DNA of 64,000 bases from NCBI RefSeq assembly GCF_001625215.2, contig NC_030387.2, positions 744,001 through 808,000 of the forward strand, written 5' to 3'. Both the position numbers and the translations under genes were made by a program. Of this stretch, positions 13,188-37,000 are shown one piece after another; within the stretch, counting starts at the first letter, position 1, and the number at the start of each line of letters is the position of its first letter. The notes beneath the pieces are model-generated. The model had not been told where the DNA came from. It made no database searches and was given only the letters and a program-made list of their open reading frames with translations. Origin of the DNA: Daucus carota subsp. sativus (lineage: Eukaryota > Streptophyta > Magnoliopsida > Apiales > Apiaceae).

Positions 13188-13432
13188 ATGTGTATGAGTT
13201 ATTGACAGTGTTTGTAATTAAGTTTTAATAATTAGCTCCAACGCAAAATTAACCCAACAGAATAGATCAATTTTTTAATATTTAAGTTTATATGCACTGC
13301 AACGTCAAACTGGTTTATTGTGGTTGGATAAATCTATTAACTACAAATTGGAAAAAGTTTACGCCAAAAGAGCAGTCTGGATTAATATTTCTCTAGCTTT
13401 TCTTAAAATGTTAACAAATTTTCATTAATGTG

Positions 13433-13870
13433 TTGCACCAGCTGCAGGAGTGTCGCCCAGAGAAGAACCCTACCATGCATGATACGAACAAACAAATCCA
13501 GTTTTTTTTTTACTAAAAGTTACAATTAGTTAGCCACAATACGAAAGTGCTTGTCAATTTAATTTACTGTGATAATCATTTACATAATGGCTAAAAGCAT
13601 TTCCCCGATCAACAAAATGGCATATATATGCTTAAAATACAACGATATATATGTGTGTTTCTGAGTCTCTGAATGCGCTGCTACGTGTTGATGACATGAG
13701 AATTGCCGGGGGGTGGGGATCGTCTCTTCATTAATGTTTTGACTGTGAAAATTCTTTTTGATAGTTGATTCTCCATGAAAATAATCATGTATCACGTACA
13801 TTATAAGCACAAACGCATTGTTGGTGATGCTGCCGGGTCGAGTTGCAGAAAGCCCTGGTGACAAGTCCCT
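13433..13870. repeat. Copy 2 (left half) of the peptide-locus block
   Basis: The sequence from CACCAGCTGCAG through GTGCTTGTCAATTT and ACATAATGGCTAA to GGTCGAGTTGCAGAAAGC matches 29376-29790 in order, with many small gaps. The block is interrupted at its right by two transposons and resumes at about 15000. Confidence 0.75.
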
Positions 13871-14999: not shown

Positions 15000-15300
15000 T
15001 GCTGTGTTTTGCATATATAATAGCGCTTTCACATATCTTAGTTTTGAAATTAGCCAGAGAAATGCAATATCTCAATTCTCAACTTGCACCACTAGCAATC
15101 CTGATGAACCCTAACTGGGAAACATTCTCCAAGTGCAATCCATTCAAATCAAATAATGGATCAATTAACATCCTGCATTGTTGAATATGATCATAATCCA
15201 TCATTACAAATATGAAACCAGTGATTCATAATCACCACACACACATATAGATGGAATTAATGAACTTATACAGCACTGTATATATATTATCAACATTACA
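15000..15300. repeat. Copy 2 (right half) of the peptide-locus block
   Basis: GAAATTAGCCAGAGAAATGC through TGATGAACCCTAACTGGGAA and on to the CTGTATATATATTATCAAC stretch matches 12035-12283 and 29957-30088. It ends just before a TATA-like sequence at about 15310 and the peptide gene at 15516. Confidence 0.8.
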
Positions 15301-15515
15301 ACCTCTACTATATAAGTAGCTAGCTAGCACACTTCCTTAATAATATAAATACAAATATAAAAAGAACATCAGGTACACCCCTATAACTTGATTGTAATTA
15401 TTTATATTTTTATTAAGCAGATTGTACCTATATTGCAATGTATACTTGAAATAATTGTTTCAAGATATATTAAGGGATCTGACATTGTTTTGTTTAGGTA
15501 TTTTAAAGAGGATTG

Positions 15516-15809
15516 ATGATGTATTACATGATGATGAAGATAGGTTTTCTCATCCTCATGGTATGGTTGGTGCTGACTTCAGTAACCAGTGATCGAGTCG
15601 ACTCCGGGACACCGGATATCATGCATGTTGATGCAAAACTGAGCAGAAAGGTAAACTCTGGTGTAAATAATGATCAGAAAACTATCAAAAATGGTGTGGC
15701 AGCTGGGAATTTCAAGGACATCAATGATGCTGAGGGGTACTACCCCCGTGATTCGAGCACTGGATCACACCACAGATATTACGATCCCCCGATAGATGGC
15801 CACTACTGA
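15516..15809 (+). CDS. Small secreted-peptide precursor, copy A
   Basis: This is a 97-residue single-exon frame. The first in-frame ATG is at 15516; several Met codons follow closely. Residues 1-26 form a signal peptide (hydrophobic core GFLILMVWLVLTSVTS). The rest is hydrophilic, without cysteine, and contains KLSRKVNSGVNNDQK, AAGNFKDIND and, near the C-terminus, EGYYPRDSSTGSHHRYY. The layout of a signal peptide, a variable linker and a conserved C-terminal motif with Tyr, Pro, Ser and His is that of plant peptide-hormone precursors. It does not match the CLE, CEP, RGF, PSY, PSK, IDA or CIF motifs that I know. It is closely related to the frame at 31033-31290, with matching leader and 3' UTR, so the two are duplicates. 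Receptor and function are unknown. Confidence 0.75.
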   Translation: MMYYMMMKIGFLILMVWLVLTSVTSDRVDSGTPDIMHVDAKLSRKVNSGVNNDQKTIKNGVAAGNFKDINDAEGYYPRDSSTGSHHRYYDPPIDGHY

Positions 15810-15956
15810 AGATGTAAGCGACGTGAACAGGCTACCTGGAATTATATATGAACCTCCTCAATCATGCAACGGCTCCATGTTCGGTGAATTACTACTTTTG
15901 TATGTTTCTGTTTGATGCTGTGATAAATTAAGATGCGAGAGCACAACTTATTGTGT

Positions 15957-16057
15957 GTTTTTGTTAACGTGAATTGTGATGTTTTATGTATGTAAAATTA
16001 ATAAAATGTTTTTGTTAACGTGAATTGTGATGTTTTATGTATGTAAAATTAATAAAA
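15957..16057 (+). repeat. Tandem duplication in the 3' UTR of peptide gene A
   Basis: A unit of about 50 bases beginning TTTTTGTTAACGTGAATTG and ending with AATAAAAT occurs twice in a row. It duplicates the polyadenylation-signal region of the peptide gene ending at 15809. Confidence 0.9.
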
Positions 16058-16442
16058 TAATTTCAACACTACTATTTAAATTGCAATGTAATCGTATCTA
16101 ATCCTTTTAACATTTAGTTTGCGGACACTTATGACTAATTACATTCTTGTGTTTGTTTCTATCTTAGGGAGGCCTCTTTCAACCTCAGAGACAAGAAGAA
16201 AAAACATAAAATGGCATGAAAAATGCAAATCTGATTGGGTAGACACAAGATCTCCCGGAACATATACAACCAAATTAATGAACTTATCATAATAATGCAT
16301 CATGTCATCTTATTAACAACTATCTGCATTGGCCAGTACTACATGATATGGTAGCTTCGACTTTCAAGCCATTTTCAATTTTAAGTCCAGATTTTATTTC
16401 TTATATCGAAGATGCTGAAGGCACTAAACGCCCTTCATTCAT

Positions 16443-16553
16443 GTAAAATTTACTACTTTTGTATGTTTCTGTTTGATGCTGTGATAAATTAAGATGCGAG
16501 AGCACAACTTATTGTGTGTTTTTGTTAACGTGAATTGTGATGTTTTATGTATG
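16443..16553 (+). repeat. Dispersed third copy of the peptide 3' UTR
   Basis: The stretch from TTTACTACTTTTGTATGTTT to GATGTTTTATGTATG repeats 15887-15990 almost perfectly, but no coding sequence precedes it. It looks like the remnant of another peptide-gene copy or a local duplication. Confidence 0.85.
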
Positions 16554-17218
16554 CTCGTCATTCGTCCATTATTAGTTAGTAGCTAGTAATATATATATGG
16601 TGCATTTGGCTCAGCTTAAGAAAATTAATTATCCCTTATAAGACAGAATTACTTTAAAAATAATTTTTAATATATGTGTTTGGTTAAATTTTTCACACAT
16701 AAAAATAAGTTATCAGAATTTTTTAACTTATCGGCTTATTATAAGTTAGAAGTTGATTAATATAAGTTAGAAGTTTACTTGTAACTTCTTTATGTTAGCA
16801 TATTACAATATCAGAGAATACTTTTATATATGAATTCTCTTCTGTCGGCGTTGTTGTAAGAAATAGAATACTGGAGTTAAAATCTTGATAGCAAATAGTA
16901 ATAAATGTCACGAATATGTACAAGAAACACGTTAAAATCTTGATAGCAAGTGGTAAATAGATGACACGATGGGGTACAAGAAACACATAGAAGTAATTTC
17001 TATCTATTATCAAAAACTCAATTATATATATAATTAAGTAGGTAATTGTTTTGTAACTTCGTTGATGCAATTTGAGAACCCTAGAGGCAGAGACACAGTG
17101 ATCTTTTTATTTGCTAGAAAGCATAAATCTAGCTACTTACATATATGGGTGACATAATTAGTTACTTCTCACTCTTCATCAAAGCAATCCATCCAACCAT
17201 TTTACAAAGTCGAGTGAC

Positions 17219-17482
17219 TCAGTTGCACGAAATAGTTGCACAGTTGAAGGTACGGTGGCTTTCTGCAGAAGATCCGGCCTTATCATGCCCAAAATTACCA
17301 TAACTCTCATTCTCCTCATCCTCATTCGTCTCAGCAACCTTGATGTTAACCTTGGGACTGATATCAGATTCAACTAAACTCCGAGGAACTTCTCCGAACG
17401 GATCAAGGCGTTTGGCATCGGTCAGTGCAGCTCCAAACACGATTAACGCCATGGTTACGGTGACTAGAAACAGAAACTTCAT
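17219..17482 (-). CDS. Small secreted-peptide precursor, divergent
   Basis: This 87-residue frame runs from ATG at 17482 to TGA at 17219. Residues 1-23 are a signal peptide (FLFLVTVTMALIVFGAALT, cleavage likely after TDA). An acidic linker NEDEENES leads to a C-terminal segment SYGNFGHDKAGSSAESHRTF and then NCATISCN with two cysteines. The overall plan resembles the two peptide precursors on the opposite strand nearby (Tyr followed by Ser-rich residues, then SHR plus an aromatic), but direct similarity is weak. It could be a distant member or an unrelated secreted peptide. Expression and processing are not visible from sequence. Confidence 0.6.
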   Translation of the reverse strand: MKFLFLVTVTMALIVFGAALTDAKRLDPFGEVPRSLVESDISPKVNIKVAETNEDEENESYGNFGHDKAGSSAESHRTFNCATISCN

Positions 17483-19053
17483 TTCAGTCTTCCTTCAAAT
17501 TTGACCTGAAAAACACAAGCTAGAAGTTTTAGAGTAGATATGAATGAGGTCAAGATAAATTAAGCTAGCGATATTAATTTGATTTTAGGAGGTTTAGGTA
17601 CTTAAAGCTTTGTAAACATATACAGTACAATCAAAGTAAATTAGCTATATGTTTAAGTATACTGGTTTGAGCAGTTATCCAAGCTTTGAGATATTTGATT
17701 GAAGAGATGCTTATACATAAGCTAGCTAGCTAGGTTGCATTATATACTAGTGAATAATTAGTAGTACTACTGTTATCAAAGAAGTTAATTTTGCTCAAAC
17801 AGTTCAAACAGACCGTATACATCGGTGAGAAACATAGGAAACTCGTTCTCTCAAAAAATAATAGTATTCTTTGATCGATTTTCTAGGAATGTTTATCGTA
17901 AAACCTACCACGCAAATTAAGCTAATGTACTCCAACAATTAATTTACATTTTCTAACAAAATTAACATACTCAGCGATCAGTTAGTTACATATTTAGGGC
18001 TTAATCCAACGAGAAAAGGCCTCAGATGCCATAAAACTTATAGCTAATGTCCAAAATATATAGCAGAACTGAGACAAAATCGCCCCAAATATCTTTTAGT
18101 AACATTTGATAATCCAGTTTTTCGATTTTAAGAAGAAAACGCTAGATCGTGTTGCGTTTAGGTGAAAATCACTGCAAAATGTTAAACGATCCGACGATTT
18201 TAGGAATAAAACGTTACAAAAATTAGCGTCCACGGCTTTTAACACTAACATTTAATTAGGATCTCTAAACACTTAATCGTGTAACGTTAAATTAAAAAAA
18301 TACACTAGTCGATGTTTCGGGTCATATTCTTTCAAATTGTGTCACTCAGGACCAACACGTACCCTAATTCAACCTTCAATAATATCGAAAAAACGTATAA
18401 CATTTCTATATGCAGTATTAATTTAAAATGTCTATTTCAAATGTTTTCCACTTAATATTATTAAAACTAATAAAAGTTCGGTGGGAGTTTCACAAATAGA
18501 AACAAGTGGTTAATTATTGATTTATTTTAATGATTTATATACCCACTCAGGCTTAATAATGATTAAAAATGATTATTAGCGTACTTTTGACAAATATTCA
18601 ACTTACAGCTTAATTATGTTCCCCCTTTGGATTGATATATATCGCGTCGTGATACCACCTTTCGTGTGATTAACCAGAAGATTAAGATAGTTTCATTCAT
18701 TTCTTTCAAGCAAGTAGTGTTACAGTTGGCACTATGTTTTCCTATCTTCAAGGTGTTATTTAATAACTATATTGTCAAACCAATAATATAATTATAATCA
18801 AAATTGAAATATTATACGCAAATAAGCTCATACTTAAAAATGCTATTATCTTCTGGCAAAAAAAAAACAAATGCTATTATCTTAAATCACAAAAGTATTA
18901 AACATCAAGCTGGAGAAAACTATGCAAAAGATAATGAGATCGGATCAACGAGCTCGCTTATATATGTTACGGATGCATCCAGCGCTGGTATATGTTGGAA
19001 AATGTGAGTTTTAGTCTCATATATATTTTCAAATTATTTTGAGTCAAAAATTT
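17483..19053. other. Noncoding AT-rich stretch
   Basis: This is the upstream region of the minus-strand peptide gene and the flank of the LTR element. No gene, RNA or clear transposon end was seen. Confidence 0.5.
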
Positions 19054-19058
19054 GGTAG

Positions 19059-19209
19059 TGTTGGGGATTATAGTGTTTCCCTCATTTATCTGTTCTTTCA
19101 CTCTCAAATATTCCAACCCTTTACAAGATCTTTCTTTCCTCTATTTATAGACCCCTGATTGGATTATGGGCCTTGGGCCTTTCTATTCTTAGTGGGCTGG
19201 GGCCCAACA
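19059..19209 (-). repeat. LTR (3' LTR of the element)
   Basis: It begins TGTTGGGGATTATAG and ends GGGGCCCAACA, with TG...CA borders. It is 151 bases and appears identical to 28292-28442. It contains a TATTTATAGACC TATA-like stretch. Confidence 0.95.
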
Positions 19210-19489
19210 TTTTGTCCCCCCCACAGTTAAGCACATCTTTAGATGGGCTTTTAATATCTAAAAGAAAAAAAGGAAAAAATTTCCCTCAGCCTTTGTAGAT
19301 GGGCTCGGCCTCGAAGCTGAAGACGCTTCGAACTCCTCGGGAAGTCGCGCCTTCTGTACTTATGCCTGTCTTTAAATCTTTTTAACTTCTCAGCACACTA
19401 TCTTTCAACTTGGATTTGACCGCTTTCGCTCTCTTCAGGTATTTTCTTGTTTTCTCTCTTGAGTCTTGTGTCTTCTTTCTTCCCCCTTC

Positions 19490-21561
19490 ATGGATCACTC
19501 TTCGACTTCCCCTCTTGTCGTCGATGCCACCGGCGACGCCGTTTTCGGCGAACTCACCCCCTTGTCCTCTGCCCAAGTTCCGCACTCTTCTTCTCATAAT
19601 ATTGCTTCCTTGGAGGGCGATTATGATGTTCTTGAGTCAGTTGATCCCGAGATTCTTGAGATGTCTCGGCGCCCTCCTGCCAAGACGGGGTCTTTGGCCC
19701 CCACTGCAGGTATGTCGAAGGACTTGATAAAGTTGTTTCGAACGAAGCCTGCCTTTAATTACCGGAGTATCATTGAGGAGGATTCTGTTGAATTGTTGGA
19801 AAAGCTTGAGAATGGCTGCGACCTGGCAAGTGGATATGAGTACCACTTGCCTAGGGGCCGAGACCGCTTGTGGCATATGCCGAAAGGCGGATGGCAGGGT
19901 GTTCCTCTGATCTTTTTTGATATGGGTTTTCGACTTCCTATGCACCCCCTATTTGCTGCTGTGTATCGAGTTTTGGGTTGTGGCCTTGCCCAGCTCGCCC
20001 CTAACGCCATAGCGCAAATATCTGGTGTTATAGCACGCTGTCATGAACTGAAAAAGATCCCCACCGTAGATTTGTTATTGTCTATTTTCCGATTTAAGAA
20101 CACTGGGGGGCAACTCTATCTGGACAAGAAACCTAAGCGTGTTCGCTTAGTGAATGTGAGGCCATCTCACTCGGGCTGGCAAGAGAGATGGGCCTATTTG
20201 GTTGGAGGCGATCTTGACTCTGTTGGTCCCTGGGATGACGTTTCTCAGTCGTGGCTTCGCATTATAAATAGTATGCCCAGTCCTTTTACCGATGAGTATT
20301 TGAAGTCCTTCCATGGGACCACAGAGCAGTTCTCCTCTGATCAACTTTCTAAAGAAGAGTTTTTAGAAACCCATTGTCGTAAGGACTTTGTATCTTTACT
20401 TGTATTGTAACTGTTATGTTTGGTTTTTTGATTGCTTTGTTTGTTGTGCAGTTTCCGGAGAAGCTCTACGAGCGTTGAGGCGGTCTCCTCGCAAGATGAT
20501 CAGTGATGCTTTGATGTCCAAACTTGCTCAGAGAGGTGCATCCTCTATGATGGGGAAAGGAATGGAGGTGACTGGTGACAAAGACTTTGAAGAGACCTCC
20601 AAACCCCGAACTGTTGCACCTAGTCACTCGGTAGAACTCATAGAGGAATCCTCTGGAAAAATTGAGCCTGAAGTACCCGTTCGTGTAACTCGTCGGCGTT
20701 CCGGGAAGGAAACAGTAGATGACACTCCTGTTGTGCATAAGAAGATAAGATTGGTTAAGAAGTCGAGTGGTGGAGAAGTGTTGAAGCCTCATCAAGGCTT
20801 GGTGGAACCCGAGAAGTCAGCTGAGGATGAAGTGTATTCTATTGCTAAGACGGCTTCCATTGCTAAGGATCGCCTTGATCAGGTCTGTTATCTTTGTTTA
20901 AACTATATATGTGCATACATACATTTTCTTGCCGGCGTGTCCCTTTGAAGATGAGACATACTTGTTGATTGTTTAACTGAATTTTTCCTCTTTTGCTCCC
21001 TGTTTTTCCGCAGTTTATACTGGAGTTTGATCGGCTAGTTGCCCTGAGTGCTAGAGGGTGTGCGGAGGCTGAGCTTGCTCGCCTTCGTCTCGATGTTGCC
21101 GATGCTGCGCGGCTTAAGGGAGAAGCTGAGAGGCGATTGGCCAGTCTTGCCAAAAAGCATGATGATTCAGCCAAGCTAGTGTCTAGGTTGCAGGAGCAGG
21201 TTGAGGAGCTGTCCACTGACAAGGAGTCTTTGAATTCTCTGGTAGCTTCCTTCCATTCCATGGAAGCTGATCATAGAGCTGCTGTGGCCAAGATTAACTT
21301 GGAGCACACTGCTGTTCTTGAAGAGTTGAAGCAGGAGAAGCGAGTGCTTGAGAAGGAATTGGCCGAAGTGAGGGATGCTTTGGAGAAGAGTTCAACTGAA
21401 GCCTTCAAGGCCTTAGAGAGTGGGTATAACCTTTGTTGGAATCGAGTTTCCGAAGCTGGGCTGGATGTGAGCGCTCACACCTTTGATCACCACTGCGCAG
21501 ACGTTGCCCGGAGTCGTGGAGGAGATGCCTGTTCCGCTAAGGGTGCTGGCTCGGCCTCTTG
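19490..21561 (+). other. Antisense reading-frame region of the LTR element
   Basis: Between the pol frame and the 3' LTR, on the strand opposite gag-pol, lie three long open blocks (about 19490-20400, 20450-20880 and 21010-21560). The first encodes a globular domain like the 'putative gypsy type transposon' domain seen with such elements (segment LLLSIFRFKNTGGQLYL). The second is charged and low-complexity. The third is a coiled coil rich in Glu, Leu, Ala and Lys. Antisense extra frames are known in Tat-lineage elements. Their role is unknown. Confidence 0.7.
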
Positions 21562-22429
21562 ACTTATCTCTGTTTTCTGTTTATCATGCCTGGGGAATGC
21601 CCTATAGGCTTTATGTATTTAACTTTATCGTACCTTATTACTTGCTTGGATGTTGCTGGTTTGGATGTTTGTTGCCGTTATATCGGCTGAATCTGTTTGG
21701 AACCTTTGCTGCCTGTCGGCATAAGTTATGTGTATTTTGGGTCCTCGTACAAGATTTGAAGTAACGAAATATTTTTCGTATCTGTTATGCCTTCTCTAAA
21801 AAGAATTTGCATTGTCTGATATCTGTGTGTTTGAATTGTTGTGTGCGAAAGATGATGTAACTGAAGTAAGGCACTTTTGTGCTAGTAATGGCGTAGCATT
21901 TTGTTATCTTTTGGCGTAAGTCATGCAAATGCTGAAGTATGCTTTATTTTGTAAAAAGTCTGCCTCGCTTGACGCGCTTTGTTTTAAATATTTGAATTGT
22001 GTAATGTTGTGTGCTTGGGTTTGGAAAATATAATGTGATGTGTTTAGGATATGCGTAGTGTGTGTGAAGTGTTGTTTGTTTGAAATATAATGTGATGTAC
22101 CTTGATGTCAATGAACGTGGCTCGTTGTTTGCTGTGTTCATGTGTTGAATGTGTCCCTTGTGAAGTTGTGTATTAAAAGTGATATGCGCTGTGTAGTATG
22201 CGTTAAAAAAAAGTGGATAGATAATGTCGTACTCAACCAAAGACAAATGATTTCTTGATATTAGAATATGCTTGATAGTGTTGAGTTTAAACAAAAGTAA
22301 TACATATCTTTCTTTGGCAAGTATTGTTGCCGGGTTTGGAGTAGGTAGTCAAAAGTGCCTTAGTGGCTTAGGTAGTCTTTGCTAGTTGCCATGTTGAAAA
22401 TACGTAGATAGATAGATTTGGTGGGCTCA

Positions 22430-25400
22430 TCACTGGTAGAACTTCTTTAGGTGAATTGCATTCCAGGTGTTTGGTATTGGAGAACCGTCTAGTTGGGCAA
22501 GGCGGTAAGTTCCTGGCCTGACCACTTTGATTATCTTGTAAGGGCCCTCCCAAGGAGCTGAGAGCTTGCTCATCTTGAGTGGCATTGAGGCTGCTGCTTC
22601 CCTGAGAACCAAATCGTTTTCCTGGAATTGGCGAGGCTTGATTTTGGCATTGTAGTACTGGGCCACCTTTTGTTGGTATTGAGCAACCTTGAGCTGAGCC
22701 CTGTCCCTCACTTCTTCTACGAGGTCGATGTTGAGTCTGAGCCCTTCTTCATTCCCTTGCTGATTGAAATTTTCGATCCTGAGAGACCCCATGCTGATTT
22801 CTAGTGGTAACACTGCCTCTGTCCCGTATGCTAGGCGAAAGGGTGTCTCGCCTGTTGCGGTTCTTGGGGTAGTGCGGTATCCCCACAGGACATTTGGTAA
22901 CTCGTCAACCCAGTTAGATGGTGCGTCTAGAAGCCTCTTCTTGATTCCCTGTAGTATCGCCTTGTTGGTAATCTCAACTTGACCATTAGCCTGCGGATAT
23001 GCTACTGAAGACTTGATGTGTGTTATCTTTAGCTGGCCTAAGGCCTCTTCAAAATCCTTGCCTGTGAACTGCGATCCGTTATCTGTCACTATGACTCTGG
23101 GTACCCCGAAGCGAAACACTATGTTTTCCATGAAGAACTGGACTACTTCTGTTTCTCTGATCCTTGCTAGGGGCTTAGCCTCTGGCCACTTGGTGTAGTA
23201 ATCGATGGCCACGATCAAAAACTGTTTCTGGCCAGTGCACTTAGGCAAAGGGCCGACTAGATCAATACCCCACATGGCAAAGGGGCATGGAGACTGAGAT
23301 GCGCTGAACGTTGCTGTGGGTTTGTGACTTACCGTTCCGTAGAGTTGACATGCCTTACATTTTTTCGAATATTCCTCACAATCTTGTTTCATGGTTGGCC
23401 AATACACCCCGTGTCTCATTATTTTTAAGGCCATGTTTCTACCAGAGATGTGATTTCCACAAATTCCCGAGTGTATTTCTTGCATAGCTGTTTGAACCTC
23501 CTGCTGACCGATGCACTTGAGAAGTGGTTCCACTAGTGCTCGTCGGTAAAGTTGGTCACTAATCAGACAGTAGTTGCGCGCTTTGAATGCAATTTTCCTT
23601 TGTTCAGCTTTATCCTCTAAGTTTAAAGTCCCTTTGATATGTTGAATGATTGGAGTCCTCCAATCATCTTGACTTGTGATGCAGTTGACCGTTTCTTGAA
23701 CCAGAGACGGGCACGTCAGTTCCTTTACGTAAATAGGTTCCGAGTTCTTTGCCGCCGTGGATGTAGCTAGTTTTGACAAGGCATCAGCCCAGTGATTGGC
23801 TGACCTAGCTATGTTTTTGATGCTCCACGAGGTAAATGTACCTAGAAGGGTGATTGCGACTTTCAAGTACGCTATCATCCTTTCATTGGTAGCCTTGAAT
23901 TCACCAGACACTTGCTTTACCACCAACTGTGAATCTGAAAAAATGTCCACTATTTTAGCGTCTAAGTGGCTTGCCAGCTTTATCCCTGCGATTAAAGCCT
24001 CATATTCTGCTTCATTGTTCGTGGCTGGAAATCCGAAGCGTATGGCTTGTTGAACTTTGAATCCCTCAGGACTGACCAGAAGTACCCCGGCACCACCTAC
24101 TTCAGATGTTGATGATCCATCGGTATACAATGTCCATGCCTTGTCGGTTAGTGATTGGGCGGGGCCTTGTTGTGGGCTTTCGGAGAAGTTGCATTCTGCC
24201 ACGAAGTCTGACAGCGCCTGAGACTTCATTGAGTTTCGTGGTTCAAATTCTAAGTTGAACTGACTTAGCTCGATGGTCCAGGCTGCTAGCCTGCCAGAGA
24301 TGTCTGGCCGATGAAGTACTCGGCGGAGGGGCTGAGAAGTCATGACAGTGATGCTTCTACCTTGGAAATACTGTCTCAGTTTCCTGCTTGCCGTTACTAA
24401 GGCTAAGACCAATTTTTCAATTTTGCTGTATCGTGTCTCGGTATCTTTAAGCATATGGCTGGCATAATATACTGGTCTTTGCTCAGTCCCTTCTTCTTTT
24501 ATCAATACCGCCGCTGTTGTTGAATCAGAAGCTGAGAGATACAGCTTGAGAGGCTCGCCTGGTATGGCCCTTGCCAATATTGGCGGATTGGCTAAGAATT
24601 CTTTGATGTCGTCTAGGCTGCTCTGACATTCCTGAGTCCATTCGAAGTGTCTTGCCTTGGATGCTTGCTTGATGGCCTCGTACATGGGAAGACTCCGCTT
24701 GGACGACTGGGGAATGAATCGCCTCAAAGCTGCGATGCAACCAGTAAGGATTTGTAGGTCTTTGACTGTCTTAGGGGGTTGCATGTCCCTTACTGCTGCG
24801 ATCTGGGAAGGGTCTGCCTCTATGCCCCTCTGAGTGAGTAGGTACCCCAGGAATTTGCCGCCCCCTAGACCAAATGAACATTTGGCGGGATTCAGTCTGA
24901 TTTGATTTTTCCTTATGCAGTCAAATGTTTCTCGCAGATCCTTTGCATGGGATGGAGCCTTTACTGATTTTACAATCATGTCATCGACATATATCTCCAT
25001 GTTTCTTCCTATCTGGTCCGCGAAAACGGTATCCATGGTTCTTTGAAACGTGGCGCCTGCATTGAGAAGCCCAAAGGGTAGTACCGTGTAGGCGAATACC
25101 CCCTTATGGGTGATGAAAGCTGTGCTATCCTGATCTTCCTTGGCCAGCTTAATTTGGTTATAGCCCGAAAACGCATCCATAAAGGAGATTAATTCATGAC
25201 CTGCTGTAGCGTCTATGAGTTGATCAATATTCGGCAAAGGGTAAAAATCCTTGGGACAGGCCCTGTTGAGATCAGAGTAATCCACACACATTCGCCATTT
25301 GCCGTTGCTTTTCTTTACCAGCACTGTGTTGGCGATCCAAGTCGGATATTGAACTTCTTTTATGAACCCTGCTTCTGAGAGGCGTTTGAGTTCGGCCTCT

Positions 25401-28234
25401 ATGGCCTCTTGCTTCTCAGGTGAGAAGGTTCTTTTCTTCTGTTTGACGCACCTGAATTCGGGCTTTATGTTTAGGCGATGGAGTGCTATATCTTCTGGAA
25501 TCCCCGGCATATCGCTGGGTGACCAAGCGAATATGTCAGAGAACTCTTGCAGCAGGGAAATTAAGCTTTGACGCACTTGCGGGGAAAGGTTTGTCCCTAT
25601 GCCCACTGTTCTTTCTGAATTATTTGGGTCAATGCTTATTTGCTCTAGCGTCTCATTTGGCACACAGGCAGGGGGTTTTACCATCTCCTGATCAACCTGC
25701 GGGTCAATGTCACTTGGCTCAGAGGCAGGGGGTTTTACCACTCCCTGATCAACCTGTGGGTCAATATCCATGAGCTCATAGGCCGGTGACTCTAGCATTT
25801 CATTGTTTGCCTGTAGTTCATTGCTTCCCAGTGTTTCCTTAGTTGATTGATCCAAATGAGGAGGCTCGATGGAGACCTGGTTCACCGAAGGGGCTGAGGA
25901 CCTATGAGGCTTTCTTTTCGGTTTCACATTGGAAATATAACACTGTCTGGACATTCGTTGATCGCCCTTAACTTCCCCGATTCCGAATTCAGTTGGAAAT
26001 TTCATTTTTAAGTGCGTGATGGATGTTATTGCCTTAAGGGCGGACTGGGTGGTTCGCCCTATAATGGCATTGTAACTACATTCTGCATTTATCACATGGA
26101 ACTTGAGTACCCTCCAAAGCTGGCAGGGTGGTGATCCAAACAAAACCGGTAAATCAATGGTTCCTACGACTCGAACTTCATTTCCGGTGAACCCGTATAA
26201 AGGGGATCCCCTAGCATCTTCAAGTTTCCTATCCCCTAAATCCATCCTTAGGAAAGCTCCGTGATAAAGAATGTCCACCGAACTACCATTGTCAATGAGA
26301 ATCTTCTTGACCAGGTTGGTCCCAATCTTGGTTGTTATGACCAGAGCGTCTTGGTGTGTTTCTAATAGATTCTCTGAGTAATCTGCATCAGAGAACGAAA
26401 TTACCGGGGAGGGGTTACGCTTTGGTCGCTTAGAGTCAATCCTGAATACTTCCCTGGCATATGATTTTTTAGAGTTGTTTGAAGCGCCCCCTGCAGCTAT
26501 ACCCCCAGAAATGACGTCAATGATTCTGTCAGCATCTGGTTGCTTGGCTTGGTTCGGGTCATCTTTCAGAACCCAATGTGAAAATTCTCCGCTTTGTATC
26601 TTTCTTTCAATGAGATTCCTTAGTTGATAGCACCTGTCTGTTGTATGCCCGGTATCCTCATGGTAATCACAGTACCTGTCACTAGCCGGTCTATCAGGAT
26701 TCATCGGCCTTGGAGGTCGATAATTAAGATCAGCTTTTATGACAGCCAGGATTTCGTTGAGTCCCACATTAAGCTTAGTGTATTCCTTTTGCTCCCTTGG
26801 GGGCCGAGGGGGCCAAGAGCCTCTGGGCTGCTGAGGCGCAGAGGCTGCTTGGCTTTGCTGTGTGACCAAATTGGCTCGCTGGTTCTCAGCTCCTTCGCTT
26901 CCTTGAGAAGTGCGATTGTCTGGTCTCCTTGCTTCCCACTTGCTTGACGAACCAGAATTTCTATCCCAGCGTCTGGCCTGAGGTGAGTGCATCTGAATAC
27001 TGCCAACAGCCTCCTGAATTGTGAGTCTATGCTCAAAGATCTCCATAGCTGCCTGTAGGGTTCGGGGGTTCTTCTCAAAGAACTCCTCTAGAATAAGTCC
27101 ATGCCGAGACTTGTCTACCCCTGCGGCCAAGTAGTTGATAGCCAGCTCGTCGATGAGATTAGGTATGAGAGCCACCTCATTTCTGAAGCGCGCCAAAAAG
27201 TCTCTAAGAGATTCTGAGGACCTTTGGCGCACTGTCATTAAAGAGGCTGTAATTTTGCCACCTTTCTTGTTACTTGAGAACCTTGTTCGAAACTTATTCT
27301 TCAGTGTACTCCAGGAGTCTATAGAGCGCGGAGGCAGATTGTCAAACCATTCTAATGCTGTGCCACTAAGACAAGTGCAGAAGAAGCGGCATCGAGATAT
27401 CTGTGAGTGCCCATAGTAACTCATTCTTCCGTCAAATTGATTAATAAAGTCAGACGGGGCCGTCGTCCCGTCAAACTGACCTATATTGGGGATTTTGAGA
27501 TTCTTGTCCAGCATGTAGCTCTCAATTTCCTCAGAGAGGGGGCTCTCAGATGGAACATCGAGACCACTCGAGCCTGTCTTGACTTGTTCTCTTAACTGAG
27601 CGACCTCTCTCCTGAGCTTGGTGAGTTCAACATTCATCTTAGGGTTAGGTCCTGTTTCTGCTTCTTCCTCTTCATCAAGTGTCCTCTTCTTCTTACGGTG
27701 ACGAGAGCTGTATGATCCAGCCGAGTCAGCTCTTGTCGAGTACTCACTGTTGTTTGATGGTCTCCATGAGATCTCATCATCATCTCTTGTTTGATACTCC
27801 TGGGAGGCAGTCCCCATCTCCGCCTCCAGGCGTGCAATCTCCCTCTGTTGACGCACTCGAGAAGCGAGCATGCGTCTCCTAGTGTCAAGAGCTAGAAGCT
27901 CATCTTCGAGATTAGCCACCTCGTAAGCTTTTCCAGCTTGAGCTCGCAATCGCCGAGCCTTAAGCTTTTCCAGATGAAGACGTGCATCACTAGTTAATAC
28001 GTGCTTTCCTTGTGGTGTTACCACGGTCCTCTTGGGGCCGCGCCTTCTTCCACCACCCGTAGGGTCTGAAAATGCCGGAGCAGCAACAGATCCTTGCGGC
28101 GTGGCTTCGACAAACAGCTTTTTAGGCTTTAAGGTGCTAGGTAGCTCGACTTCCGGCGAACTAATAGCTTTTATTGATTTTGTTTTTGGAGCAGATCTGG
28201 AGCTCTTCCTTCGTTCTTCCTCTCCTCTAGCCAT
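22430..28234 (-). CDS. Gag-pol polyprotein of the Tat-type LTR element
   Basis: One 1934-residue frame, with ATG at 28234. In order: a basic N-terminal region; a retrotransposon gag domain near residues 250-340 (FDGTTAPSDFINQF); a zinc-knuckle-like CDYHEDTGHTTDRC near 523; an aspartic protease near 648 (LIDNGSSVDILY); reverse transcriptase with YVDDMIV near 1083; RNase H near 1236; a second archaeal-type RNase H near 1370 (LYTDGSS); an integrase zinc finger, then the integrase core with WGIDLVGPLPK near 1656 and VTDNGSQFTG near 1718. It provides the capsid and enzymes for copying and inserting the element. The frame looks whole. Confidence 0.9.
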   Translation of the reverse strand: MARGEEERRKSSRSAPKTKSIKAISSPEVELPSTLKPKKLFVEATPQGSVAAPAFSDPTGGGRRRGPKRTVVTPQGKHVLTSDARLHLEKLKARRLRAQAGKAYEVANLEDELLALDTRRRMLASRVRQQREIARLEAEMGTASQEYQTRDDDEISWRPSNNSEYSTRADSAGSYSSRHRKKKRTLDEEEEAETGPNPKMNVELTKLRREVAQLREQVKTGSSGLDVPSESPLSEEIESYMLDKNLKIPNIGQFDGTTAPSDFINQFDGRMSYYGHSQISRCRFFCTCLSGTALEWFDNLPPRSIDSWSTLKNKFRTRFSSNKKGGKITASLMTVRQRSSESLRDFLARFRNEVALIPNLIDELAINYLAAGVDKSRHGLILEEFFEKNPRTLQAAMEIFEHRLTIQEAVGSIQMHSPQARRWDRNSGSSSKWEARRPDNRTSQGSEGAENQRANLVTQQSQAASAPQQPRGSWPPRPPREQKEYTKLNVGLNEILAVIKADLNYRPPRPMNPDRPASDRYCDYHEDTGHTTDRCYQLRNLIERKIQSGEFSHWVLKDDPNQAKQPDADRIIDVISGGIAAGGASNNSKKSYAREVFRIDSKRPKRNPSPVISFSDADYSENLLETHQDALVITTKIGTNLVKKILIDNGSSVDILYHGAFLRMDLGDRKLEDARGSPLYGFTGNEVRVVGTIDLPVLFGSPPCQLWRVLKFHVINAECSYNAIIGRTTQSALKAITSITHLKMKFPTEFGIGEVKGDQRMSRQCYISNVKPKRKPHRSSAPSVNQVSIEPPHLDQSTKETLGSNELQANNEMLESPAYELMDIDPQVDQGVVKPPASEPSDIDPQVDQEMVKPPACVPNETLEQISIDPNNSERTVGIGTNLSPQVRQSLISLLQEFSDIFAWSPSDMPGIPEDIALHRLNIKPEFRCVKQKKRTFSPEKQEAIEAELKRLSEAGFIKEVQYPTWIANTVLVKKSNGKWRMCVDYSDLNRACPKDFYPLPNIDQLIDATAGHELISFMDAFSGYNQIKLAKEDQDSTAFITHKGVFAYTVLPFGLLNAGATFQRTMDTVFADQIGRNMEIYVDDMIVKSVKAPSHAKDLRETFDCIRKNQIRLNPAKCSFGLGGGKFLGYLLTQRGIEADPSQIAAVRDMQPPKTVKDLQILTGCIAALRRFIPQSSKRSLPMYEAIKQASKARHFEWTQECQSSLDDIKEFLANPPILARAIPGEPLKLYLSASDSTTAAVLIKEEGTEQRPVYYASHMLKDTETRYSKIEKLVLALVTASRKLRQYFQGRSITVMTSQPLRRVLHRPDISGRLAAWTIELSQFNLEFEPRNSMKSQALSDFVAECNFSESPQQGPAQSLTDKAWTLYTDGSSTSEVGGAGVLLVSPEGFKVQQAIRFGFPATNNEAEYEALIAGIKLASHLDAKIVDIFSDSQLVVKQVSGEFKATNERMIAYLKVAITLLGTFTSWSIKNIARSANHWADALSKLATSTAAKNSEPIYVKELTCPSLVQETVNCITSQDDWRTPIIQHIKGTLNLEDKAEQRKIAFKARNYCLISDQLYRRALVEPLLKCIGQQEVQTAMQEIHSGICGNHISGRNMALKIMRHGVYWPTMKQDCEEYSKKCKACQLYGTVSHKPTATFSASQSPCPFAMWGIDLVGPLPKCTGQKQFLIVAIDYYTKWPEAKPLARIRETEVVQFFMENIVFRFGVPRVIVTDNGSQFTGKDFEEALGQLKITHIKSSVAYPQANGQVEITNKAILQGIKKRLLDAPSNWVDELPNVLWGYRTTPRTATGETPFRLAYGTEAVLPLEISMGSLRIENFNQQGNEEGLRLNIDLVEEVRDRAQLKVAQYQQKVAQYYNAKIKPRQFQENDLVLREAAASMPLKMSKLSAPWEGPYKIIKVVRPGTYRLAQLDGSPIPNTWNAIHLKKFYQ

Positions 28235-28291
28235 ATTTCGACTGCAATTTCTCGTTGGAATACTCTAGAGTCCCCTCCTTCTAGCGCCAAA

Positions 28292-28442
28292 TGTTGGGGA
28301 TTATAGTGTTTCCCTCATTTATCTGTTCTTTCACTCTCAAATATTCCAACCCTTTACAAGATCTTTCTTTCCTCTATTTATAGACCCCTGATTGGATTAT
28401 GGGCCTTGGGCCTTTCTATTCTTAGTGGGCTGGGGCCCAACA
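28292..28442 (-). repeat. LTR (5' LTR of the element)
   Basis: It is 151 bases and appears identical to the LTR at 19059-19209. It lies upstream of gag in the element's orientation and would hold its promoter. It is followed outside by the GGTAG target duplication. Confidence 0.95.
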
Positions 28443-28447
28443 GGTAG

Positions 28448-29369
28448 TAGAAGTTGCATGTGAGGAACAAGTGATGTTTGAAATATATTCGTGTCCATAG
28501 ACATGTTGAACTATTCAAGTAGTTAAGTGATGAATGAGATATGATCATTTAAAATTGGTCCCGCGTTGATTTGGAAAAAGAGTTTACATTGCTCTATGTA
28601 GCACAACATTTTAGTAGTGTTCAAATGTATTAGTAATATATTTTTCCATCTTCTACGTGCGCACAAATATTGATAGGATTTCGAGGTAAATCCGAAACTT
28701 ATGAAGGCCGAGCGAACTCGTGAAGGCCGCGCGACTGCTGACACGAATTGGGTCATCAAATTACGGACTAGTTTTTCTATTTAATTTTTAATGGGCCAGT
28801 GCTCTTAAATAATTAATTTGTTTATAATATAAATAATTATAATTGATTTGATGAAATATTAATTCGAGTAAATTATGAATTAATATTTAACAAAATTAAT
28901 TAATTAACCATTTTAATTAATTAATTGAGTAGCCCACGTGCTTTGCTATCTTTATACATTCATCGTAATTTGTAGGGTTTTATTGATTCGAAACGCTAGC
29001 CACTCTCACTTATTCGTCTTCTTTGGTGATATTCTCTTACTCATCTCAAACTCGTTGGAAGTGAATTTTGCTTCATTTGTAGTCTATTTTATCGTAGGAG
29101 GTGATTCGTTCACACATACGATGAGTGCTAATACATTTCAAGGAGACAATCACGCACTGTACTTGAATTTTGTTATATTTCTTCTTGTCTCCTCGTTATT
29201 TGAATTTTGTATTGGTCTGTTATTTACACACATGCACACGATAATTCTTGTTGTTTGGTTTTAACACAGTTTGTACAACAATATACATGAGTTCTCCTTC
29301 CCCTGCAGCTAGCCTAAATTAAAAGTATACAAGTTATTTAAAAATGCTTACGAATTTTCAATCGGATCG
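28448..29369. other. Noncoding stretch between LTR element and duplicated block
   Basis: This AT-rich sequence contains one long hydrophobic open frame (28938-29264) that lacks gene-like composition. The part from 28690 to 29270 has a promoter-like and leader-like look (TTAATGGGCC, CCCACGTG) that could be an old solo LTR, but no ends were found. Confidence 0.4.
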
Positions 29370-30088
29370 GAATATGTTGCATCAGCTGCAGTAATGTCAC
29401 CGAGCAATGAACCCTACTCTGTCCCTGCATAATGAATAAACAACTCCAGATTTTTTTCATTTAGCTAGCCGGAACCAGAGAGTGCTTGTCAATTTCATTT
29501 ACTGTTGTCATCATTAACATAATGGCTAACAACATTCAATCGATCAATAGATGTGCGACTCTGACTGTGTGACTATGAACTGAAACATACATTTGTATAT
29601 GCGTATCCTGGTATACGTAGTGATGACACAAGTACTTCCGGGTTGGATCTAGGTCTTTTCTCCATTATTGACAGCCTGATCGACTCAGCCCGGTCCAGAC
29701 ATTTGTATATTCGTGACCAACTACATAAAGAAGGAGCCAAAGAACATGCAGATGACGCTGACTGGTCGAGTTAAAGAAAGCTCTAGCCACTGGTGTCATA
29801 TATATTGGATGCTACGAGATCCAGAACATTTATAAGTAAAACTCATGATAATTGTAACCTAATAAATTTTCTTAGTACTACCTAGCGTATTAACTGCATA
29901 ATACATGGTAATTAAGTGACTATATCTCCTACAGTACTGATTAACAAATTATGTCCGTTTTGAAATTAGCTGGAGAATGCAATATCTCATCAACTTGCAC
30001 CTCTAGTCAATCTTGATGAACCCTAACCGGGGAACATTCTCGAAGTGCAATCGATTTTAATCAAATAATTGATCAACAGCCTGCACTG
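29370..30088. repeat. Copy 3 of the peptide-locus upstream block
   Basis: It contains both halves of the block in one piece: CATCAGCTGCAG to GGTCGAGTTAAAGAAAGC (matching 13433-13870), then ATAATTGTAACCTAATAAATTT to AATTGATCAACAGCCTGCA (matching 11885-12165 and 15044-15184). It is interrupted at 30091 by a retroposon and continues to peptide gene B. Confidence 0.8.
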
Positions 30089-30090
30089 TT

Positions 30091-30659
30091 TTTTTCTAAG
30101 ATGGAATTAATTCAATGAAAAACAATACGGCGTCTAAAAAGCAATCAAGTTAAACAAATATAAAACGCATCATATCGCTGATTAATTTAGTCTTTGTGAA
30201 TACACAATCAAGCTATTTGTTGAAGTTGATATATGTACATATATCGGCTTCATCATTACCGGTTTAAGCTATCGACCGTAACTGCAATTCCATATAAATC
30301 TTTACCACTGAATCAAACCCTTAAAAATCCGGCAGATCTAATGTCCTGAACATTGAATTACACCAAAACACACAAAAAACACACCAAGCTCTCACAAAAG
30401 AGAAAATAAACAAAATCTAAATAAATTGGGAACAAAACTCACCCTGAAAAGATTTTATCAAACAATACAATCTTGGAAGATATAAATCCTAATTACCTAG
30501 AGAGGAGTATTATTGAAATAAAAAAGAACAACGCAAAGAAAATATCTGGTTTGGGGTTTTCCATCGATGAAAAATCAAAAGCCCGAAAAGAAGAAAGAAA
30601 CTGAGAGGTTTTTTTTTTAGGATTTTGAGGAGAGAGTTAAGCTAAAAATAAACCTAACG
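30091..30659 (-). mobile_element. Non-LTR retroposon (SINE-like), copy 1
   Basis: About 570 bases are inserted into the duplicated block, as shown by comparison with 12150-12180 and 15165-15190, where it is absent. A T-run at the left (TTTTTTTC) is the tail on the minus strand. Imperfect target repeats GCCTGCACTGTT and GCCTGCAGTACTGTT flank it. Internal sequence (AAACACACAAAAA, CTCTCACAA, AATTGGGAAC) is shared with 52331-52859. Confidence 0.7.
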
Positions 30660-31032
30660 GCCTGCAGTACTGTTGAAAACTAACTTAATTAATCATTATT
30701 ATGTGTAATCAGTGATATAGGAAGATATGGAATCCATTTACTTATATAGCAGTAGTACAGTATATTATCAACATTATATATAATTAGCTAGCTAGCTAGA
30801 CACCCTTCATTGATTGCATAAATAAAACAAAAGGAATATCAAGGTTAGCCACTTTTCATTCTCCTTTACATAAATAATTCGATTCTACCTAGCTATAAGT
30901 AGCTTGATAGTTGTAAGTTGGAACTATATATATATTAGAATGAATGTGTATTTGAAAGATCTTTTTAAATCAAGGGAACTGACGTTGGTTGTTTAATTTG
31001 TTTAGGTATCTTAAAGAGGATTAATATATCTG

Positions 31033-31290
31033 ATGATTATGAAGATAGCTCTTCTCGTACTCATGGTGACGTTGGTGCTGACATCAGCAACTACGGAGGG
31101 AGTGGATGCAAAACTGAGCAGAAAGGTAAGCGCTGGTGTAAACAATAATCAGAAAGTTACTAACAAGAATGTGGCTGCTGGAAATTTCGAGGTGATTAAT
31201 GATGCTGATGGGTTCTACCCACGTGATTCGAGCCCTGGATCACACCGTAGATATGATACTAAGGATGCTCCGGGACAAGGCAGACACTGA
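31033..31290 (+). CDS. Small secreted-peptide precursor, copy B
   Basis: This is an 85-residue single-exon frame with ATG at 31033. The signal peptide, residues 1-22, is IALLVLMVTLVLTSATT-like. It is followed by KLSRKVSAGVNNNQK, AAGNFEVINDADGFY and the C-terminal motif FYPRDSSPGSHRRY, then a short Asp/Gly/His tail. It is clearly paralogous to copy A at 15516-15809: the leader, the region of the start, SRKV.GVNN.QK, AAGNF, IND and YPRDSS.GSH.RY are all kept, while the spacer and tail vary. That pattern suggests selection on the YPRDSS...SH.RY segment as the active peptide. The Asp/Glu residues before the Tyr would suit tyrosine sulfation, but this is inference. The 3' UTR (GGCTCCATGTTCGGTGAATTA) is also shared with copy A. 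Confidence 0.75.
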   Translation: MIMKIALLVLMVTLVLTSATTEGVDAKLSRKVSAGVNNNQKVTNKNVAAGNFEVINDADGFYPRDSSPGSHRRYDTKDAPGQGRH

Positions 31291-31509
31291 AGATCATATG
31301 CGATGTAATATCAACGTCCTCATGCATGCAATGGCTCCATGTTCGGTGAATTAGTTTTCTGTATGTTTCTGTTTGATGTTGTAATGAAGATCACCAGAGC
31401 ACAGCGTGATCGTATGTTAGGTGGTTATGAGTTAAGTGCATGCATGCTCTGTGTGTTTGTTTACGTGAATTTGTGTGATTATTATGTGTATGTAATAAAA
31501 TGATCATGG

Positions 31510-32503: not shown

Positions 32504-32586
32504 GGGAGATCCGGTGATGGCATGAAATAATCTTTGAGACCTGATTCTTATTGATGACAACCTTAAGCATGTTGCTGAGGATTCCC
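32504..32586 (+). ncRNA. Box C/D snoRNA, guide to 18S rRNA (snoR66-like)
   Basis: A closed structure of 83 bases: terminal stem GGGAGATCC (32504-32512) with GGATTCCC (32579-32586), box C GTGATGG (32514-32520, one mismatch to RTGATGA), box D' CTGA (32541-32544), box C' TGATGA (32552-32557) and box D CTGA (32575-32578). The 12-13 bases before D', ending AATCTTTGAGAC at 32540, are complementary to GTCTCAAAGATT near the 5' end of plant 18S rRNA. By the D'+5 rule the target is the C at about position 38 of 18S, a known plant 2'-O-methyl site attributed, from memory, to snoR66. The guide before box D was not matched. The RNA would act in the nucleolus with fibrillarin. Confidence 0.8.
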
Positions 32587-32631
32587 ATCTTAGTTTTAAG
32601 ATTCTTGTTTTGGTTTTTTTAATTGGTTGAA

Positions 32632-32713
32632 TTTGAAGTGATGAATTTTGCACTGGGCTCTGATGATTGTTGATGCATAACTATGCAGCCTAGAAAGCTA
32701 TTTCTGATCTATA
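32632..32713 (+). ncRNA. Candidate second box C/D snoRNA
   Basis: A perfect box C GTGATGA lies at 32638-32644, with CTGA at 32660-32663, C'-like TGATGC near 32671 and CTGA at 32704-32707. It lies 50 bases after the first snoRNA, as in plant polycistronic snoRNA genes. The terminal stem is weak, and neither guide (ending TGCACTGGGCT or AAAGCTATTT) was matched to rRNA or U6 from memory. Confidence 0.4.
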
Positions 32714-34009: not shown

Positions 34010-37000
34010 TCAGTGCTCTAGAGCGCTTCTAAGTGAGAGTCGATTATCGAGCCCCATGCCTTTAGATATCAGGTCATGGTTCAAGAACAAAACAAAGACA
34101 GTTATATCATCATGGAAATGACGCCGGACCTTCTTCTCAATCCTTCTAAGATCTGAATATCGCATTTCTCGTTTTCTAGCTGCTTCCTGCAGAGCAGCCT
34201 TGACAAGCCTCTTGGCACTACCCTGTATCAGAAGAGAAGACGTTACAAGCAAACAAGGGAGACAAGAAGCATGGCAGATATATTAAAATCAACGATAAAA
34301 TAATAGAAACTTTATAACTACGAAGCAACCACCACAGGGCACAGTTATACCTTCAAGTTTTAATATTTAAAACTTTGAAGGCATTGTATACTTTCATACT
34401 CCGGGACAATTATAACTGGCCATTCCCAGAATTAGGTTCGTAGACTAAGAGAAGGAAAAAGTGGTAACCCGGATAGCCCAGCAATGATTAGGTAATTAGG
34501 AAAAGAATCCACAAGCTGCATTGCAGAGGGCTTGACAGCGTATTTCCCACAATGGGAAGCATTTCTGAGCCACCAATGTCTCCCCTCGGATTAGATTTAG
34601 GGTAAGTACTTATGTAGAAAGGTAATTCGACGTCATGCAGCATAATCAGGGGTATGAAAACGGAATCCCTGGAAGTCAATGAGTAAATATAGTCGTGTAG
34701 CATAATTAGTGGCCTTGACCATTACATAGACTTCTGGGGCTTTCAGATTAAGATACCTTCATATGGGACTATTTTTTACTGCAATACATCGTTGGAATGT
34801 TTGTAAAGGGATGTTTGTGAAGGGTCAAGTTCTAAGAACGTTTAGAAGTTTATTCTTGAGAATTATGATCATGACTACAAAATACAGTTAAGATATCGAG
34901 GATATGATCTTACTGCACGAGGATTGTTGTGGACAATCTCCACAGCCTTTTCATTACTCAGGTGCTCCCATAAACCATCAGAAGCAAATATAAGGAAAGA
35001 GTCACCAGCTTGAAGAGGATGAGAAAGTATAGATGGAGTTGCACTCATGATGGGCATGTTCATTGGTTCAGGAAGCCGAAATTTTCCATTAATTGGCTCC
35101 CTGTTAAAGCGTGCATGCTTCATATACACATCCCCTATAGATTTAGAAACCTGCATAAACAATTTTTTGTGATTAGATAAATCAAGAACACTTTTTGTAA
35201 ACAAAGGACAAGATACTAATATCGTCTTTTATACTTCAAAATGCAGAATTAATTTTTTTTCCAGATATGCAGTAAAAACTAAATTTCTTACAGAACTTTG
35301 ATTATTGTTCATAACATGCCTAAACTCTACAGCCAAGTTAAAGAGATCAGTGAGATCATGCTTAAATTGAACAAAACAGAAAGAAAAAAGACCAGTCCGT
35401 AACCTATAAGGGATGACAGCTAAGTGAAAATCTTGCCTCGCACATCTACTTCGAAATCCAATCCACGAAATTTACTAATATATCATGATTTTTCTTCGCA
35501 AATGTGACCAATACATCATTGTCAAGCACTGCCAACTACACAACTATTTCAATTTGAACTCATTATTTGTCATCATGGGATCAATATATAGAGACGAACA
35601 GCCAACACATCTCTAATCCACGCAATTTAAATGTGAACTTCAATGAATTATAAGCCATAGGCCGAAGCACAGTAGTTAGTGCTTATGGCATATATTCACA
35701 TAACTGCAACACGCATACATGTAGTTCAGTAGTTCAATATGCTCTCCTAAAAAAAATGATGAAGGGGGGTAATATATGAATTATAATTTCTCAACAAACG
35801 ATCATTATTCCAGAGAAAATTATATGCACTTATACCCATATTTTTTTTAAGAAATTCAGTATTGACTCGTTGAATTGGAGATGAACATGATTTATTTCAA
35901 GACTTCCAGATGTGAAGTCCGAATTAACTTGGTTAATGACAATTTAACACAATGAATTACGAGTAAGATGCCCTTTACATACCGGAATTTTTCAGAACAA
36001 TTGCAATACTACGGTTCCTAACCACTTACTATACTGAATCTTCATTAATGTTACACTTGTGTGGTTCAGCTAAAAACCCTCAAACTCAGTTAGCAAATAT
36101 TAGTTGGTGTTAGCCTGTTAGGGATGAATATCTAAAAAATCATATTTATTTCCTCTTATTCTATCCATCCTCTTCCTGCTGTGTTTATACAAGTATGCAT
36201 ATGCACATACATTTGTATGAAATCTTCATATAATTTTAATCCTTATACCCAAATTTTAGCAAACCATTACAAATTTAACTCTCTTAGCGATCTATGCATG
36301 TCCTTGATCTATCTCAAGACATATAGTTCTCTTTTATACACACACACACATATTTACACGAATATAATTAACAAATTACTTCTGATATGTGGAATATTAC
36401 TAAAATCAAAAACCAAGTTCTTATATCTTTAATTCATCTAAATTTGCACTTCAGATTATAGAGCCTTTTTTATAAAAAAAATAAAATCACATATCCTTTG
36501 AGTATATTGTTCTGGTTTAAATTAATGTGGAGACCAAAGGGTTGTGTTTGTTTTTATATATGTATTGTGTTGTAATTAAGCTGAAGGTGTTGGACTGTTG
36601 GTAGTTATTAAAGTGGTCATTAATAGGGAATGCAAGTCTACATTCATCATTGTCTATGTTAATTCTCATTTAGGGATATTCTGATTTATGGGCTTTGCTT
36701 TCGTGAATTATGGTTTACAAGAGTTTGAAGAATGAAACAGGGGCAACTTCTTAGTATATAATTCTGAAGAAGCTGTTGAAGTAATGTAATCCAAACAATA
36801 CCCTCATGGCGTTAGACTAATTTGACGGAAACACACAGAGTGTCAAAAATAAAAGTTTCAGTGTTACAAGCGGTATATATTTTTGAAATGGAGTATTGCA
36901 AGTGATTTGACACTCTAAGGGTATACAAAGTGCACAGCAGTTATTAAAAATAGGAAGCAGTAGTATTTAACAAATGAGTTTAGGTATTAAACTGAGCTTG

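Follow-up and report, generated by a model that had tools for sequence, protein, structure and literature searches.

Two paralogous genes on the forward strand of a 64,000-nucleotide stretch of the carrot genome (Daucus carota subsp. sativus, contig NC_030387.2, positions 744,001 to 808,000; called the window below, with coordinates counted from its first letter) appear to encode small secreted proteins in which the sequence [FY]YPRDSSxGSHxRY lies close to the C-terminal end. The two genes are homologous, have intact reading frames and a common layout, and both products start with a hydrophobic segment and lack cysteine. We tentatively read them, with a chance just short of even, as tandem-duplicated genes for processed, Cys-free precursors of secreted signalling peptides. 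This reading is built on two copies, and the signalling role is putative.

The two putative precursors and their products

15516 to 15809, + strand: precursor copy 1, 97 amino acids (aa), with signal peptide (about residues 1-25), pro-region, motif YYPRDSSTGSHHRY and tail YDPPIDGHY
31033 to 31290, + strand: precursor copy 2, 85 aa, with signal peptide (about residues 1-21), pro-region, motif FYPRDSSPGSHRRY and tail DTKDAPGQGRH
15738 to 15779, + strand: motif YYPRDSSTGSHHRY of copy 1, where processing may occur after the YPR Arg
31213 to 31254, + strand: motif FYPRDSSPGSHRRY of copy 2, where processing may occur after the YPR Arg

A preliminary description of this DNA had placed two paralogous precursors at 15516-15809 and 31033-31290, and they were found at exactly these places on the + strand. 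Copy 1 matched copy 2 in tblastn with E 4.5e-29, and nothing below E 0.2 was found elsewhere in the window. Both frames were intact, and 54 of 83 aligned residues were identical. Judged by hydropathy alone, the proposed signal peptides were recovered as well: the N-terminal 12-mers IGFLILMVWLVL (copy 1) and IALLVLMVTLVL (copy 2) had mean hydropathies of 3.0 and 3.26, compared to 0.05 and 0.56 for the best 12-mers starting after residue 25. Their cleavage places we take to be those given by the -3,-1 rule, which leaves 72 residues in copy 1 and 64 in copy 2. As had been described, neither protein contained a cysteine (0 in both), and the acidic stretch with Tyr was seen in both copies as DINDAEGYYPRD and VINDADGFYPRD. 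An AlphaFold2 model computed from a two-row alignment had no folded domain; its mean predicted local distance difference test score (pLDDT) was 55, the C-terminal third was mostly below 50, and the one helix, at residues 2-49, was mostly of low confidence. Because the alignment has two rows, this fold-less model is weak evidence.

According to a passage of PMC4082320, precursors of small post-translationally modified peptides have 70-120 aa, few or no Cys and a mature peptide of <20 aa. The carrot proteins, with 97 and 85 aa, no Cys and a hydrophobic N-terminus, fall within this class as that passage describes it, and they also have its short C-terminal stretch and paralogous copies. They differ from its named families in that the motif belongs to none of those tested, and here they are known from genes alone.

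No relative was found by tblastn in viral contigs (147 pattern hits) or prokaryote genomes (71), collections not meant for plants. Pfam returned no family for copy 1 and, for copy 2, a sub-threshold DUF6567 (E 0.14, 12.5 bits against a cut-off of 27). Of the NCBIfam models, which are made for prokaryotes, one matched copy 1 below threshold (E 0.074, 13.1 bits with a cut-off of 125); copy 2 had no match there, and PDB sequences, compared with copy 2 only, contained none either. YPRDSS, other forms of the motif and strings from the pro-region were absent as exact strings from the main texts of open papers, where NHHxIPR, a plant small-protein motif, had no match either. The single literature match to variants of the motif, in the kidney prorenin receptor, was judged unrelated.

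Predicted processing and known peptide families

The subtilase SBT4.13 reads IDA mainly via Pro at P2 and Tyr at P4, at the site YLPK/GVPIPP (passage in PMC13082318). In the carrot precursors the P2 residue of [FY]YPR/DSS is likewise Pro, P4 is Tyr or Phe and P1 is basic, and cleavage after the Arg is predicted from this resemblance. In the pathway that we propose, the signal peptide would be removed from the Cys-free pre-propeptide, a subtilase would cut after the Arg of [FY]YPR/DSS as SBT4.13 cuts IDA after YLPK, and C-terminal trimming of the variable tail would free DSS[TP]GSH[HR]RY, roughly ten residues long, as a possible apoplastic ligand of a receptor kinase. For the pro-region, with its conserved VDAKLSRKV...GVNN.QK, we propose a role in trafficking or processing. 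The exact cut at [FY]YPR/DSS would have a lower probability than a processed signalling peptide in general. It is possible, although we hold it with some doubt, that DSS[TP]GSH[HR]RY represents an unnamed and perhaps lineage-restricted hormone family with no canonical sulfation, an IDA-like [FY]YPR release and a tandem array.

The precursors were compared with known families using 11 profiles for 10 peptide families (IDA twice), each run on both proteins against shuffles (22 tests). The peptides were taken from passages of PMC11534595, PMC10741408, PMC12349381 and PMC4197245, and 8 of the 11 profiles were built on one or two peptides. RGF4, GLV8, GLV9, CIF4 and TWS1 were left out for unequal length and PSY was cut to 13 residues, while PSK and the cysteine-rich peptides were compared by simple pattern, without a profile. 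Within this range, that is for the 10 profiled families and, by pattern, for PSK and cysteine-rich peptides, the earlier statement that the motif lies outside the known classes holds. Scores were at shuffle level in 21 of the 22 tests, and the only P below 0.05, for Pep1 on the pro-region of copy 2 (P 0.038), is a chance count for 22 tests. Gapped alignments with 32 single peptides (64 tests) gave three values below 0.05, again a chance-level count and all on copy 2: PSY3 on the tail (P 0.01) and RGF1 (P 0.045) and RGF5 (P 0.0425) on the motif. The defining strings DY, SGPS, GxGH, PPxHN, N..H.P, YI[YF]T and SxS occurred in neither precursor, and a pattern search for an S1P-type RxxL/RxLx site found none in either.

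It is improbable, in our judgement, that the genes encode a Tyr-sulfated peptide of the PSY, RGF or CIF kind, whose product would start further upstream, at the acidic DA[DE]G[FY]Y, or carry its sulfate on the Tyr that closes the motif region. Tyrosines do stand in acidic surroundings, and the Y-P-x7-H spacing is that of PSY6-PSY9 in the peptide list of PMC11534595. However, Asp-Tyr, the minimum for plant Tyr sulfation in the relevant passage of PMC4082320, is in neither protein: the residues preceding the tyrosines at the start of the motif are Gly and Tyr in copy 1 and Phe in copy 2, and Pro follows the shared Tyr. A passage of PMC7913133 gives weight to an acidic residue at -1 or +1, and at the end of the motif, past its core, both copies have a Tyr with Asp at +1 (RYYD in copy 1, RYD in copy 2). 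The sulfation suggested earlier therefore lacks its canonical signal, but it may still occur under a looser rule. The PSY3, RGF1 and RGF5 alignments also point towards sulfated peptides, but they are uncorrected for the 64 tests and none of the three is found in copy 1.

The PSY motif is DYXXXX[AP]NXXHXP with an Asp-Tyr start (PMC7913133, same passage). The precursors resemble PSY in a Tyr-Pro with His nine residues past the Tyr and in acidic context; they differ in having neither DY nor N..H.P, and their PSY profile scores of -4.5 and -4.9 are far under those of all nine members (at least 30.0 bits when left out one at a time). Neither the DY start nor the PPxHN-like end of RGF/GLV/CLEL peptides (sequences from the PMC11534595 list) was present, and the RGF profile gave -2.5 and -7.6 compared to at least 18.1 bits for left-out members. 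The DY start of CIF/TWS1, whose CIF motif spans 21-23 residues, was also missing, and the profile of three CIFs (CIF4 and TWS1 excluded) gave -7.9 and -10.0 compared to at least 20.2 bits for members. For PSK (YIYTQ), no YI[YF]T was found in either precursor.

A strongly diverged member of the IDA, PIP or CEP families, proline/serine peptides read by receptor kinases, is a little less improbable and still quite unlikely. IDA/IDL peptides have an SGPS core followed by (R/K)(R/K)HN, and PIP/PIPL peptides have SGPS with a terminal GxGH, as given in a passage of PMC4526919. The precursor layout is the same, [FY]xP[KR] stands directly before the presumed product, and the SSPGS of copy 2 recalls SGPS by eye. 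As in IDA/IDL, an aromatic-x-Pro-basic sequence precedes the presumed product, a Ser-containing stretch follows and the C-terminal tail varies; unlike in IDA/IDL, there is no S[GAV]PS in either precursor, no (R/K)(R/K)HN end and no significant profile score. CEP and PIP/PIPL precursors are likewise Cys-free, and FYPRDSSPGS faintly resembles FRPTxPGxS by eye, but neither SGPS nor GxGH of PIP/PIPL, and neither SP[GS].GH nor G.GH as expected from the C-terminal SPG(I/V)GH of CEP, occurred in either copy. The IDA, PIP and CEP profiles, each made from one or two peptides, behaved as on shuffled sequences (P 0.19-0.96).

For the 12-residue CLE motif, the profile (two peptides) gave P 0.075 and 0.295 with its best places in the pro-region, off the motif. 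SCOOP peptides follow the rule S-x-S; no S.S was present in either precursor, and the SCOOP12 profile gave P 0.54 and 0.75. Cysteine-rich peptides such as RALF, EPF and defensin do not match proteins with 0 Cys.

Divergence of the two copies and layout of the gene units

Past the signal peptide the alignment covers 61 residues, of which 40 were identical: 11 of the 14 in the motif and 29 of the 47 outside it. The best block of 14 columns (12 identical) was VDAKLSRKV..GVNN in the pro-region, a value that permutations often reach (P 0.65), and VDAKLSRKV is the longest block common to both proteins. The tail was the most changed part, with 3 of 9 aligned residues identical, so the variation between tails noted in the preliminary description was confirmed. 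The core YPRDSSxGSH, written as a degenerate codon pattern, was present at two places in the window and absent from all 100 shuffles; since the pair is homologous, this count only restates the homology.

That the best-kept columns lie in the pro-region, above the motif, would suit a small secreted protein acting as a whole, for example in defence or metal binding through its His/Tyr-containing end, with no hormone processing; we regard this as unlikely, though less so than the diverged or sulfated known families. The post-signal part of copy 1 has four His and five Tyr, but that of copy 2 has just two of each. The net charge (K+R minus D+E) of -2 and +2 is unlike that of a typical cationic antimicrobial peptide, and the lack of Cys and of a predicted fold also speaks against such a protein.

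For the whole protein dS (synonymous divergence) was 0.32 and dN (nonsynonymous divergence) 0.24, with dN/dS 0.74 (bootstrap 0.38-1.47). By segment, dN/dS was 0.58 (0.18-2.48) in the signal peptide, 0.56 (0.19-1.91) in the linker and 0.53 (0.04-1.88; 893 of 1000 resamplings usable) in the motif, taken with the preceding Gly as 15 codons. The tail was the fastest part, at 3.05 with a very wide interval (0.65-15.2; 860 resamplings usable). Third-position changes made up 24 of 54 differences, a number reached by 209 of 5000 neutral simulations, and the 54 of 83 identical residues, against a neutral mean of 47.9, were reached by 111 of 5000. The evidence for coding constraint on the pair is modest.

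The likeness of the two genes extends well past the open reading frames (ORFs), over the following features.

15251 to 15372, + strand: promoter/first exon block of copy 1, homologous to 30727-30845; TATATAAG at 15309 among five TATA-like upstream sites
30727 to 30845, + strand: promoter/first exon block of copy 2; TATATAAT at 30777 among six TATA-like upstream sites
15373 to 15497, + strand: candidate intron in the 5' untranslated region (5'-UTR) of copy 1, 125 bases; CAG/GTACAC ... TTGTTTAG/GTAT
30844 to 31005, + strand: candidate 5'-UTR intron of copy 2, 162 bases; AAG/GTTAGC ... TTGTTTAG/GTAT
15810 to 15959, + strand: 3'-UTR of copy 1, agreeing with copy 2 at 97 of 126 aligned bases over 15810-15960
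31291 to 31418, + strand: 3'-UTR of copy 2, homologous to that of copy 1
13405 to 13612, no strand assigned: copy 1 unit, upstream block with its homologue at 29341-29547
29341 to 29547, no strand assigned: copy 2 unit, upstream block with its homologue at 13405-13612
15041 to 15182, no strand assigned: copy 1 unit, upstream block with homologues at 29957-30090 and in part of 12033-12217
29957 to 30090, no strand assigned: copy 2 unit, upstream block with its homologue at 15041-15182
11911 to 12217, + strand: third, truncated copy of the upstream block, without a precursor-like ORF after it

At the DNA level 15489-15959 matched 30997-31418 (70.8%, E 8e-66) and 15251-15374 matched 30727-30845. 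Both candidate introns have an AG/GT donor, and the acceptor TTGTTTAG/GTAT is identical in the two genes and lies just 5' of the start codon; the exon after it is closely matched, and by eye an in-frame TAA stands between acceptor and ATG in both copies. Identity was lowest in the intron (82 of 121 aligned bases, with 50 gap columns, over 15371-15497), and was 85 of 107 (0.79) in the first exon/promoter and 56 of 74 and 147 of 186 (0.76-0.79) in the coding part. Gaps in the coding part were of 30 and 6 bases, plus one base that completes three with two gap columns before the start codon; the five intron gaps were of 21, 5, 10, 6 and 8 bases, and the seven in the 3'-UTR were irregular. The longest identical run, 25 bases, lies in the pro-region. 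The two precursor genes are diverged tandem gene units with a common layout.

Several observations weigh against the two genes encoding signalling-peptide precursors. The motif showed no significant excess of conservation over the rest of the secreted part (hypergeometric P 0.20). The dN/dS intervals take in 1 for the motif and for the whole protein. With identities of 0.79 and 0.77, the first exon/promoter and the early 3'-UTR match between the copies as well as the coding part does, so that shared descent alone could explain the likeness. At the predicted cleavage site, P4 of copy 2 is Phe and not Tyr, and P1' is Asp in both copies compared to Gly in IDA. With 11 of 14 against 29 of 47 and the best block elsewhere, the variable linker and strongly kept motif of the preliminary description are unsupported by two copies. 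The size, hydrophobic start and lack of Cys of its peptide-hormone architecture agree with the class passage of PMC4082320, and the singling out of the motif over the pro-region is not significant. In its proposed comparison of dN/dS, the motif value of 0.53 has an interval that extends to both sides of 1. Its key step, the motif as mature product, is weaker than stated.

Relaxed or dying duplicates, in which the motif is undiverged ancestry under little constraint, would account for the dS of 0.32, for the dN/dS interval reaching 1.47 and for flanks as alike as the coding part, and the third unit at 11911-12217 is already truncated. Yet both frames are intact with gaps in frame, and third-position changes and identical residues both exceed the neutral simulations, so we give this explanation only a small chance.

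Neighbouring elements and significance

The next-longest identical runs between the copies, of 21 and 19 bases, lie in the 3'-UTRs (15871-15917 and the copy 2 counterpart) and are possibly a regulatory element. Part of the copy 1 3'-UTR, 104 bases at 15889-15992, is repeated exactly at 16450-16553, some 560 bases further on, and in the same UTR 51 bases are duplicated exactly in tandem (15956-16058). Scanning the 3' end of copy 1 for bacterial promoters and terminators, which does not suit a plant gene, gave no sites. The shared upstream blocks were rejected as coding, with stops in all six frames of each of six stretches.

Between the two precursor genes lies a Ty3/gypsy element (19059-28442) with identical 151-base long terminal repeats (LTRs), TG...CA ends and a 5-base target duplication, GGTAG. 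Its gag-pol region is one frame of 1944 codons on the - strand, and a further ORF on the + strand matches Pfam Transposase_28. Because its LTRs are identical, the element appears to be younger than the precursor gene duplication (dS 0.32). The C/D-box small nucleolar RNAs snoR66 and snoR118 (32510-32710, + strand) follow the copy 2 ORF at a distance of about 1.2 kb and lie about 50 bases apart. On the - strand of the window were found a PP2C match (36987-37511), a DYW-type PPR gene with one long open frame (49658-52270), a weak F-box match below the cut-off (54415-55020) and a PAS-domain match (61606-62091). The DYW-type PPR gene suggests that the window is nuclear DNA of a plant.

If the genes do not encode a hormone, they illustrate how easily moderately diverged tandem copies suggest a conserved motif beyond what the numbers support yet. 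If they do represent a true hormone family, it would add a ligand whose motif differs from those of the compared classes; the synthetic peptide to make is evident, and an orphan receptor kinase could be its partner.

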